Below are positions 7,918-55,305 of a DNA stretch of 64,000 nt, one piece after another. The notes under the pieces are model-generated. The model was not told the DNA's origin. It saw only the letters and a program-made list of their open reading frames with translations, and searched no databases. Each line of letters opens with the position of its first letter. Positions within the stretch are counted from its first letter, which is position 1. The stretch is from positions 2,012,501 to 2,076,500 of the forward strand of contig NC_013162.1 in NCBI RefSeq assembly GCF_000023285.1, read 5' to 3'. The position numbers and the translations under genes are program-made. The DNA is from Capnocytophaga ochracea DSM 7271 (GTDB taxonomy: Bacteria > Bacteroidota > Bacteroidia > Flavobacteriales > Flavobacteriaceae).

Positions 7918-7925
7918 TATCTTTG
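7918..7925 (+). promoter_or_regulatory. -7 element TATCTTTG of rpsO
   Basis: TATCTTTG lies 46 bases before the rpsO ATG, leaving an A/T-rich leader of roughly 40 bases. Confidence 0.65.
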
Positions 7926-7970
7926 CGCCCGAAAAAAAATATACATAATAATCATTAAATTAATATTGGA

Positions 7971-8240
7971 ATGTATTTAACAAAAGAAGTAAAAGCAGAA
8001 ATTTTTAAAAAGTACGCAGGTTCAGAAACCAACACAGGTTCAGCAGAAGGGCAAATAGCTCTTTTTACCCTTAGAATCAATCACCTTACAGAACACTTGA
8101 AAGTAAATCGCAAAGATTTCAATACCGAGCGTTCTTTGGTAAGATTAGTAGGTAAACGCAGAAGTTTGCTCGACTATTTGAAAAACACTGATATTGAAAG
8201 ATATCGAGCGATTATCAAAGAGCTAAACATCAGAAAATAA
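7971..8240 (+). CDS. rpsO: 30S ribosomal protein S15
   Basis: This 89-residue protein has the typical length. The S15 signature runs through TGSAEGQIALFTLRINHLTE and the basic segment RSLVRLVGKRRSLLDYL, which binds 16S rRNA helices in the 30S platform. It is followed by a terminator and then pnp, the widespread rpsO-pnp order. Here each gene appears separable because of the intervening terminator. Confidence 0.98.
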   Translation: MYLTKEVKAEIFKKYAGSETNTGSAEGQIALFTLRINHLTEHLKVNRKDFNTERSLVRLVGKRRSLLDYLKNTDIERYRAIIKELNIRK

Positions 8241-41204: not shown

Positions 41205-41417
41205 CCTCTATTTTATCTTCCTCTTATCTTCACCTTATCTTCACCTTATCTTCGTTCATTGTTCGTCTTTTGTTCGTCTTTTGTTCGCCTTTTGTTCGTT
41301 GTAGAGCCACTGTAGAGCCACTGTAGACCCACTGTAGAGCCACTGTAGAGCCACTCATTGTTCGTTTATCATTTAAGCTCTGTATAAGTTACCCCTAATT
41401 TCACCATTAACCATTAA
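41205..41417. repeat. Degenerate 11-bp tandem array (array 4), longest copy
   Basis: About 18 units of 11 bp, read on the minus strand as GCTCTACAGTG, GGTCTACAGTG, AACAAAAGACG and AAGATAAGGTG types, form an inverted homologue of the array at 12741-12890 with more copies of several units. It ends in CCATTAA heptamers. The gap continues with A/T-rich sequence, a promoter at 41494 and the structured element at 41573. Confidence 0.85.
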
Positions 41418-41493
41418 TCTCTTTGCTAGTGTGAGTTTGTAGCTCGTACCTAAAAAATATGCACCAAAAAATTGTACAATTAAAAATTAGTTG

Positions 41494-41501
41494 TACATTT
41501 G
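41494..41501 (+). promoter_or_regulatory. -7 element TACATTTG before structured element A
   Basis: TTGTACATTTG lies 79 bases upstream of the first hairpin of element A. The same TGTACATTTG occurs 85 bases before element B, so both elements appear to be transcribed from matching promoters. Confidence 0.65.
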
Positions 41502-41572: not shown

Positions 41573-41805
41573 AGCGTTTCGCTTTATAATTTCCTTTTTA
41601 TAGAAAACGACCATTTTTATTAAAGTAACTAAAGGGAAGTAGAAGTGGAAATGCCTACGTTATAAGCGTGGGCATTCCTTTTGCTTTAGTTACTGCCTTT
41701 GGTCGGGCTTCTATAAAAGTATAAGGAATGTGCCCGCGTTTTTTTATGCGCTTATATGAACGACAAAGGCAGAATCCGAAAAGCCTGTAATAGAGTAGGA
41801 AAAAT
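41573..41805 (+). ncRNA. Structured RNA element, copy A (leader of the lipoprotein operon)
   Basis: Pairings: hairpin AGCGTTTCGCT (41573-41583); P2 41599-41605 with 41709-41715 and 41608-41613 with 41700-41705; P3, 11 bp, 41624-41634 with 41684-41694; P4 GGAAATGCC (41647-41655) with GGCATTCC (41671-41678); P5 41720-41725 with 41751-41756; P6 AGGC (41767) with GCCT (41783). AAGGAATG (41723-41730) can also pair with CATTCCTT (41673-41680). Copy B at 54567 keeps all these with different bases in P2, P3 and P5. The element ends about 20 bases before the ATG of a lipoprotein gene. No named RNA family is recognised. Confidence 0.8.
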
Positions 41806-41824: not shown

Positions 41825-42532
41825 ATGAAACACAAATTATTTTTAGTAGCTTTCATAGCTGGGTTTCTTGCAATCACAGCTTGTAAGAAAGATGAAAACA
41901 AAGGAGAAGAAGGGAAAACACTTAAAGTTTATCTTACTTATGGAGAATATGATAATCCTTTAGTGGGGAGGAAGATATATGCTTTTATTGACCCTAAAAA
42001 GATAGCAGTTACTCTATTGGAACAAGATAAAGAAGGTACTATTGATGGTACAAAATCAATAAGGGGACAAAATATTACTGACAACACTGGTAGCTATATA
42101 CTTTTTTCGAATTTAAAAGTTGGGTATACATACATAATAATAACTAAAAATAATAGTTGCCTAAGAAATACTAAGGAGAAAAATAAAGTAAAAATAGAAC
42201 CATATCATAATGGTTTAGTATATAATGTTGAATTCTATCAGGAATCAAATATTATTGTTAATAACTTCTTAGGGAAAGAAGTTTATTATACAATTGACAA
42301 GCCTGAATACGAAGGTATTGATGCCCAAAATATGTGGTTCTCAAATAGTAGTAGACAAATAACAATTAAACCCAAAGTTTATGACAATAATCAAATCTCT
42401 TCATTGGATAGCTATTATAAACATACTTTAATGCTTTATGATTCACCAAATGATACTATTCGACTTGTGAAAACTATAAACTTTGAAGTAAGAGAAGGTT
42501 GTGAACCTACTATAATTAATTTAAAACCATAA
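41825..42532 (+). CDS. Lipoprotein, probably surface exposed
   Basis: This 235-residue protein has signal peptide 1-19 with lipobox AITAC; the mature start C-K-K-D-E-N-K fits the Capnocytophaga lipoprotein export signal (Cys, any residue, Lys, two acidic residues). The remainder is beta-rich (LKVYLTYGEYDNP, GSYILFSNLKVGYTYIIIT), like an extracellular beta-sandwich; no family is recognised. It lies directly behind structured RNA element A and 12 bases before the next gene, with which it forms a two-gene unit. Confidence 0.7.
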   Translation: MKHKLFLVAFIAGFLAITACKKDENKGEEGKTLKVYLTYGEYDNPLVGRKIYAFIDPKKIAVTLLEQDKEGTIDGTKSIRGQNITDNTGSYILFSNLKVGYTYIIITKNNSCLRNTKEKNKVKIEPYHNGLVYNVEFYQESNIIVNNFLGKEVYYTIDKPEYEGIDAQNMWFSNSSRQITIKPKVYDNNQISSLDSYYKHTLMLYDSPNDTIRLVKTINFEVREGCEPTIINLKP

Positions 42533-54377: not shown

Positions 54378-54481
54378 GTTGTTTCACATACTTTGCCAAA
54401 GTTTCAAGCTTTGGAAAAGTTGATGACACAATATTTTTATCAAAAATACTCTTTTATTTTGCAGGAATGATATTTTTTTTG

Positions 54482-54489
54482 TACATTTG
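54482..54489 (+). promoter_or_regulatory. -7 element TACATTTG before structured element B
   Basis: TGTACATTTG matches the promoter of element A exactly over ten bases and lies 85 bases before the element's first hairpin. The sequence between promoter and element is A/T-rich with no other feature seen. Confidence 0.65.
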
Positions 54490-54566: not shown

Positions 54567-54806
54567 AGCGTTTCGCTTTACAGTTTCCTAATTTCTGAAA
54601 ACGACCAATTTTTTTAGATGTAAATAGGAAAGTAAAAGTGGAAATGCCTGCGGTTACGTGGGCATTCCTTTTGCTTATTTACATCAGCCTTTGGTCGGGC
54701 TTCAGAAATTGAGCAATAAGGAATGTTTCCACGTTTTTTTATTGCTCTGTTATAGTGAAACCTACCTAAAAGGCGGTAACCGAAAAGCCTGAACAGAGTA
54801 GGTATA
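54567..54806 (+). ncRNA. Structured RNA element, copy B (leader of a lipoprotein gene)
   Basis: The same fold as copy A: hairpin AGCGTTTCGCT (54567-54577); P2 54592-54599 with 54701-54708 and 54602-54608 with 54691-54697; P3 54617-54626 with 54676-54685; P4 GGAAATGCC (54640) with GGCATTCC (54661); P5, 9 bp, 54711-54719 with 54739-54747; P6 AGGC (54771) with GCCT (54787). AAGGAATG (54718-54725) can pair instead with CATTCCTT (54663-54670). Conserved unpaired-looking strings include CCGAAAAGCCTG and AGAGTAGG. It ends about 25 bases before a lipoprotein ATG. Confidence 0.8.
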
Positions 54807-54831: not shown

Positions 54832-55305
54832 ATGAAAAACAAAAACAAAAACGTAGCGTGGGCGACCTTTCGCACTGCTACACAGTTAGTAGCCATTATG
54901 GCAGTAATTTTAGTAACCCTTATCGCTTGTAGTAAAAGCGACAGCGGAGGAAGTACAGACAACAAGAACTTAATTGGCACTTGGAAGTTAGAAAGTATGA
55001 CTATTGATGGAAAGAATGCTTGTGAAGTATATCCTGAGTATTTATTCTGTGGAAAATGTAAGAAGCTTCCTTATTTTGTTTTTTCTGACAAAGAATATGT
55101 GTCTTATTCTTATGATGGTTCTTGTGAACTCAAAAAAACAATTGGAAAATACACTGTTTCAAAAAATACAATAGTACTTATTGATAATCAAGAAGGTGGT
55201 TCTTCAAATTTTACCATATCAGGGAATAAACTTACCTTTACTTCTCCAGTAGAAGATGATAAAGGAAATAAACATACTTCTACTATGACTTTTGTCAAGC
55301 AATAA
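54832..55305 (+). CDS. Lipocalin-like lipoprotein
   Basis: This 157-residue protein has a long N-terminal signal region (hydrophobic 18-33) and lipobox TLIAC followed by SKSDSGGS. The mature part begins NLIGTWKLESMTID, the opening of lipocalin-like lipoproteins of Bacteroidota, followed by regular beta strands and paired Cys (CEVYPEYLFCGKCKK). The position after the Cys lacks the acidic surface-export pattern, so it may stay periplasmic. It follows structured element B and has its own terminator. Confidence 0.75.
   Translation: MKNKNKNVAWATFRTATQLVAIMAVILVTLIACSKSDSGGSTDNKNLIGTWKLESMTIDGKNACEVYPEYLFCGKCKKLPYFVFSDKEYVSYSYDGSCELKKTIGKYTVSKNTIVLIDNQEGGSSNFTISGNKLTFTSPVEDDKGNKHTSTMTFVKQ

Follow-up and report, generated by a model that had tools for sequence, protein, structure and literature searches.

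A pseudoknotted leader RNA with a predicted terminator switch, apparently undescribed and widespread in Bacteroidota, is a candidate orphan riboswitch

Two stretches of the Capnocytophaga ochracea DSM 7271 genome, each located just before a lipoprotein gene, raise the question of what kind of RNA they encode and whether this RNA controls the gene that follows. A sequence-only reading of the 64,000-nt stretch of DNA analysed here (the window) had proposed a functional, structured RNA, suggested to be a cis-acting leader, at positions 41573 to 41805 (copy A) and 54567 to 54806 (copy B). When the window sequence was read again, both copies were located at these coordinates, and their 5' domains fold with z = -5.3 and -5.4, respectively, against dinucleotide shuffles. 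The structured RNA was thereby upheld, but its description as one 233-nt element was abandoned because the stretch consists of two modules that occur independently, i.e., a 5' domain of approximately 170 nt and a 35-nt DUF805b hairpin.

Architecture of the 5' domain

The features of both copies lie on the forward (+) strand. In copy A, the 5' domain starts with the hairpin P1 (AGCG-UUU-CGCU, 41573 to 41583), which is defined by folding and by the covariation alignment. It is followed by the 5' strand of Px (AUUUCC, 41589 to 41594), whose partner is GGAAGU at 41635 to 41640, and by the 5' strands of three helices assigned by covariation: P2 (UUUUUAUAGAA, 41595 to 41605, with its 3' strand at 41709 to 41719), P2b (CGACCA, 41608 to 41613, with UGGUCG at 41700 to 41705), and P3 (41624 to 41634, with 41684 to 41694). 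The P4 hairpin, for which both folding and covariation provide evidence, places its 5' strand (antiterminator strand b) at 41643 to 41659 and its 3' strand (b') at 41667 to 41682. The short clamp PC pairs GCC (41695 to 41697) with GGC (41706 to 41708) around the 3' strand of P2b, which results in a pseudoknot. In copy B, the 5' domain including P1 and Px extends from 54567 to 54719 (145 bits with the R2 covariance model described below), and P2 (54590-54599/54701-54710), P2b (54602-54607/54692-54697), P3 (54617-54626/54676-54685), P4 (54640-54651/54657-54668), and PC (54687-54689/54698-54700) are arranged in the same way. P2 and P3 had already been recognized in the sequence-only reading, P3 at the same positions.

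The earlier proposal that the copies keep the same helices by compensatory change was evaluated with 103 matches aligned to a covariance model (set A7), an alignment that is fitted to the modelled structure and leans towards it. In this set, 38 of the 42 model pairs are changed on both sides, and 89.3% of the paired cells are paired, compared with 60.4% after shuffling and 34 to 42% when the strands are slid. Cells changed on both sides number 1164 (345 when shuffled), and the covariation score of 0.688 exceeds those of the shuffled (0.178) and slid (≤0.10) controls. Changes on both sides are seen in eight of nine model pairs of P2 and in all nine of P3; all six pairs of P2b covary and are 99.5% paired over the 103 matches. 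Covariation, which is suggestive with two copies, becomes decisive with 103 matches, and comparative evidence of this kind indicates that P2, P2b, P3, and P4 covary strongly. In addition to its pairing, P4 is conserved in sequence (GCUCACG/CGUGGGC), with most positions at 86 to 100%.

Since the alignment is fitted to its own structure and Px, PC, and the terminator lie outside the model, these three features were assessed by asking how well each strand pairs within its own element and how well with the corresponding strands of all other elements, a comparison that is independent of the modelled pairs. With statistics that ignore kinship, own partners were favored with z = 15 for Px (the P1-P2 linker with the P3-P4 linker), z = 11.5 for PC (GGN/NCC-type clamps flanking the 3' strand of P2b), and z = 15 for the terminator pairing, and none of 2000 permutations reached the observed value in any case. 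This covariation supports the assignment of Px and PC as pseudoknots, and because both cross the nested helices, the core is predicted to be multiply pseudoknotted. A smaller contact is also suggested: AGCGUU of the P1 loop region is complementary to AACGCU at the entry of P4 (a GUU/AAC-type contact). Its variable fourth position pairs in 92 of 101 homologues (77.6 expected, 0/5000), and the fourth pair of P1 itself is mostly unpaired. Covariation thus supports a P1-to-P4 contact, which may be a loop contact or strands 1 and 2 of an attenuator.

The predicted terminator and the downstream genes

The 3' side of P2 is followed by a tail that resembles the 5' strand of P4 and then by a U-run. In copy A, this tail (b2, 41715 to 41738, assigned from helix energy) forms 20 bp with the 3' strand of P4 and the start of the P3 3' strand (-27.2 kcal/mol), and the resulting stem adjoins a run of seven U (41739 to 41745). 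In copy B, the tail GGAAUGUUUCCACG and the U-run (54734 to 54740) together occupy 54720 to 54740, as judged from the sequence and the terminator tests. The sequence-only reading had regarded this stretch as a fifth helix, P5, shared by both copies; as its sequence is that of the terminator tail, i.e., the 3' half of the terminator that pairs with P4, P5 was discarded as a conserved helix. A run of at least five U is present in 83 of 101 homologues, versus 24 of 101 in a downstream control, and is missing from the remaining 18. Among the 83, the terminator helix has a median length of 20 bp and a mean energy of -23.4 kcal/mol (-11.6 with shuffled tails and -9.1 in the downstream control); its 3' end touches the U-run exactly in 63 and lies within 3 nt of it in 94%. 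The predicted terminator loop is unusually long and comprises roughly 25 to 35 nt of the P3 3' strand, PC, and the P2 3' strand. Because pattern-derived loci were chosen by their P4 and tail sequences, only the model-derived loci provide an unbiased test of the P4/tail relation. P4 and the terminator both use the 3' strand of P4 and are therefore mutually exclusive, and the element appears to contain, as expected for an attenuator, an intrinsic terminator with a competing antiterminator.

The element is positioned between a promoter and the start codon of a same-strand gene, as far as promoter boxes and reading frames indicate. The identical promoters noted earlier were found again, with TGTACATTTG at 41492 to 41501 (A) and 54480 to 54489 (B); the Bacteroidota -7 box TACATTTG within them (41494 to 41501 and 54482 to 54489) lies 72 to 78 nt upstream of the copies. 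A TANNTTTG promoter box occurs 20 to 120 nt upstream in 74% of homologues (6.7% in shuffles), and a box between the U-run and the ATG was found in only 3 of 76, from which it follows that the gene must be transcribed through the terminator. For 113 of 116 elements, the gene that follows has the same orientation and usually lies within 150 nt, while upstream genes are found on either strand. In agreement with the 20 to 30 bases given before, the lipoprotein ATG is 20 to 26 nt behind both copies. The gene behind copy A (41825 to 42532) encodes a 235-amino-acid lipoprotein with no Pfam match, and that behind copy B (54832 to 55305) encodes a lipoprotein with a Lipocalin_4 domain (PF13648).

The description of an RNA present twice before lipoprotein genes is accurate for the window but too narrow for the genome, which has three additional copies of the 5' domain (L002/L112, L005/L113, and a divergent one at C1:1613346-1613498). 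Their downstream genes encode a DUF805/Sel1 membrane protein, a 75-amino-acid protein with a weak BNR repeat, and, in L286, a lipoprotein-like protein, so that three of the five copies precede lipoprotein-like genes. A setting restricted to lipoproteins does not apply to the class, which precedes very diverse genes across the phylum and is present in multiple copies, up to 8 in a genome, before unrelated genes. By simple heuristics, 25% of the first downstream proteins have a lipobox (6.6% of control ORFs) and 62% a hydrophobic N-terminus (21%), and exported proteins and lipoproteins thus seem to be overrepresented among the targets. When 143 downstream proteins were scanned with Pfam and PADLOC, no dominant family emerged; the Pfam tallies include eight TonB receptor plugs, five response regulators, three EcoRI-type methylases, and several other methyltransferases, together with lipocalin-like, BACON, PEGA, and LRR proteins. 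The same scans gave no shared pathway or metabolic theme, and the targets therefore suggest no ligand.

Among the homologues at L086, L101, L089, L090, L103, L186, L193, L226, and L247, several lie before restriction-modification or methyltransferase-like genes (EcoRI-type, HsdM-like, D12, and type III-like); at L086, the gene approximately 290 nt behind the element is dihydrolipoyl-dehydrogenase-like. In Flavobacterium, a recurrent copy is located approximately 230 to 380 nt before SusC-like TonB receptors, which is beyond the usual distance (L167, L172, L212, L214, L215, L223, L225, L259, and L269); these distant copies might be processed as separate RNAs.

Distribution and relation to known RNAs

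A covariance model of the 5' domain alone (R1) matched 17 of 20 Capnocytophaga genomes and five other genera, mostly without DUF805b. A model rebuilt from 35 sequences (R2) matched 99 of 398 genomes of the order, covering 22 of 110 sampled genera, as well as 9 of 40 genomes that sampled the class mostly at one genome per family, and 33 of 297 genomes of a phylum sample, four of them outside the class. A search of this kind, which had been suggested for Capnocytophaga and Flavobacteriia, thus yielded many homologues. A DNA pattern of P4 and the tail occurred in more than 119 stretches of GTDB genomes, nearly all named as Bacteroidota; among the matches listed were Flavobacterium, Tenacibaculum, Sphingobacterium, Sunxiuqinia, Alistipes, Odoribacter, Prevotellaceae, Bacteroidaceae, and Porphyromonas. 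One Fibrobacter-labelled match, from a metagenome-assembled genome, is a genuine element. The single Clostridia-labelled match among those listed was rejected, as its genome has no R2 match and its sequence is unlike the element. Carriage on plasmids or phages was likewise discarded as a general explanation, with no BLAST match in plasmid records (two queries) or phage records (one query); two IMG/VR viral contigs (L277 and L278) carry the element pattern, and L277 also has a phage terminase-like gene.

The family, which the sequence-only reading did not recognize, proved to be known for the 35-nt 3' end of each copy and unmatched for the 5' domain. The RF02914 model of DUF805b RNA (clan CL00115; gathering score, 35.6) covers 41766 to 41801 in copy A (52.0 bits) and 54770 to 54804 in copy B (48.8 bits) but not the 5' domain, and the Rfam match to a known class therefore concerns this add-on only. 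Three scans with Rfam 15 at gathering scores gave no match to the 5' domain in the window or in homologue loci; the elements of 18 pattern-derived loci had no match at these scores, nor did those of 8 such loci when hits up to E ≤ 2 were allowed, and a permissive scan of copy A returned nothing credible outside DUF805b. DUF805 RNAs are reportedly described in a 2017 paper. DUF805b RNAs resemble the present element as 5'-UTR elements before diverse Bacteroidota genes but constitute a separate hairpin/pseudoknot module that leaves the 170-nt 5' domain outside and is mostly found apart from it. At E ≤ 1e-5, DUF805b was found in 18 of 20 genomes of the genus and in 89 of 151 of the family, in most cases without any sign of the 5' domain, and a DUF805-like motif stands behind 16 of 188 5'-domain elements (0 in a control stretch). 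As each module occurs alone, the copies in the window each combine two leader modules that are independent of one another. The combination is also found in gut Bacteroidales, and the distribution identifies DUF805b as an optional, independent add-on behind the terminator in Capnocytophaga and some gut Bacteroidales.

In copy A, the DUF805b loop UCC (41775 to 41777) is able to pair with GGA (41798 to 41800). Among 59 distinct DUF805b sequences, a standard pair between the nucleotide preceding the loop CC and the one following AGAGUAGG occurs in 49 (expected, 22.2; 0 of 10000 shuffles reach 49). On this comparative evidence, the loop NCC of DUF805b and the GGN' behind AGAGUA form a small, covarying pseudoknot of the H type, which is absent from the Rfam structure line. 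Many stand-alone DUF805b leaders of other Flavobacteriaceae are situated just behind TGGCAC-N5-TTGAA (L060, L063, L065, L067, and L070 to L073), which looks like a sigma-54 promoter and would put the hairpin near the mRNA 5' end. Some Capnocytophaga copies (L026, L031, L033, and L043) have another small conserved hairpin upstream (e.g., CGUUAUCCGAAGGACG and AGCUGUCCAAAGGGCU) in place of the 5' domain. At L044 (1594 to 1685), a DUF805 gene is preceded by a 5' domain that is truncated at its 5' end, with the 3' strand of P4, the tail, and DUF805b intact; this element is possibly decayed or rearranged.

Other structured RNAs of Bacteroidota have been obtained by comparative genomics, including Flavo-1 (RF01705), Bacteroidales-1, Bacteroides-1, and 6S-Flavo (motif table of PMC2864571); none of them matched the homologue loci in Rfam scans. 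A study of Flavobacterium psychrophilum listed 64 structured 5' regions together with 85 new RNAs (Rfp sRNAs), some of them conserved and without Rfam hits (PMC9723704), and described no phylum-wide class. Members of the present class could be among these RNAs, and parts of it may be contained in Tables S7 and S8 of PMC9723704 as well as in the HMP2 models of PMC8040213. No publication describing the 5'-domain class was found in a literature search of incomplete coverage. Because no description was found and published sets may contain fragments, we regard the element as a new class within the attenuator and riboswitch-like leaders and not as a new kind of RNA. Taken together, the searches point to a class of leader RNAs that is widespread across Bacteroidota and apparently undescribed.

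Interpretation as a transcription attenuator

We consider the 5' domain to be, with a probability of about 0.7, a transcription attenuator that acts in cis and whose antiterminator is pseudoknotted and aptamer-like. This is in line with the functional, cis-acting leader initially proposed, which is supported by covariation, upstream promoters, the same-strand downstream gene, and the terminator switch. The nascent RNA would fold the pseudoknotted core (P1, Px, P2, P2b, P3, and PC), which would hold the P4 hairpin. The P4 3' strand would double as one half of the intrinsic terminator, and the other half, a copy of the P4 5' strand, would be transcribed last, just before the U-run. If the core and P4 are stabilized, the terminator would be blocked and the downstream gene transcribed; if not, the tail would invade P4 and transcription would stop. 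We infer from this arrangement that termination occurs, that it is regulated as an ON switch, and that a ligand exists. The core, a conserved aptamer-like domain with covarying structure of the kind expected for a riboswitch, is the likely sensor, which makes the class an orphan riboswitch candidate. Like the H-type pseudoknot riboswitches with terminators (fluoride/crcB, preQ1, and SAM-II), it would combine a 5' leader position, a pseudoknotted core, terminator/antiterminator exchange, and several copies per genome; it differs from them in that it matches no Rfam class by sequence or covariance and in that its targets have no pathway theme. To our knowledge, the helix arrangement of the 5' domain matches no known riboswitch arrangement.

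The main competitor, which we rate as roughly half as probable, retains the attenuator but assigns the trigger to a protein or another RNA; RNA-binding proteins and antitermination factors, for instance NusG paralogues, would be examples. The sequence conservation of P4 is reminiscent of a protein-bound hairpin, and the lack of a metabolic theme fits this explanation as well; however, the requirement that the P4 strand match the tail is alone enough to constrain its sequence, and the elaborate pseudoknotted core is more aptamer-like than a simple protein site. It is rather unlikely that the element is a stand-alone small RNA of approximately 190 nt, with the downstream gene placed by chance or reached by leak-through. 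Its own promoter and predicted terminator would suit such an RNA, some loci have no close downstream ORF, and at L105 the element is followed by another promoter-like box and a gene start (seen in the overlapping locus L039). On the other hand, the consistent position of a close same-strand gene and the scarcity of promoter boxes between the U-run and the ATG argue against it, and the duplication of P4 in the tail is a switch feature that a plain small RNA terminator does not need.

The order of complementary strands 1-2-3-4 (AGCGUU, P4 5' strand, P4 3' strand, and tail) resembles that of trp-type attenuators, in which four successive strands pair as 1:2 and 3:4 or as 2:3 with a U-run behind strand 4. 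Ribosome-driven attenuation through a leader peptide is nevertheless highly improbable: the class has a large pseudoknotted core in place of a conserved leader peptide, and ATG-initiated uORFs of at least 8 codons are depleted in 75 leaders (35 observed versus 57 expected from shuffles) and have no fixed position, so that this candidate was rejected. We give even less credence to the view that the whole element is the known DUF805b RNA. RF02914 does match the end of both copies, yet each module is found without the other at most of its loci, and the 5' domain matches no Rfam family.

Within the riboswitch interpretation, a small signalling molecule would fit the diverse targets better than a pathway metabolite. 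A bolder version, which we hold tentatively and at somewhat less than even odds, is that of a phylum-wide Bacteroidota riboswitch class with a multi-pseudoknot aptamer unlike known ones, which would sense a global signal (e.g., a nucleotide second messenger) and switch on accessory surface, secreted, and restriction-modification genes. The class offers a directly testable route to the putative signal that controls surface lipoproteins, TonB-dependent receptors, and DNA methyltransferases in a dominant phylum of gut, mouth, soil, and sea, for which we know of few described riboswitch classes. What is added here is a leader RNA that is common, occurs in several copies, and has no Rfam entry; its structural model is complete and its terminator switch evident. 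The model supplies ready-made mutants (P4, terminator, Px, and PC) and assay targets, and DUF805b, now with a pseudoknot, is told apart from the larger element.

Two other features of the window were noted. Just upstream of the copy A promoter are two 11-bp tandem repeats, at 41300 to 41355 (TGTAGAGCCAC, 5.1 units) and 41213 to 41253 (TTATCTTCACC, 3.7 units), and positions 7918 to 7973 match the S15-Flavobacteria ribosomal protein leader (RF03161), a known Rfam element.
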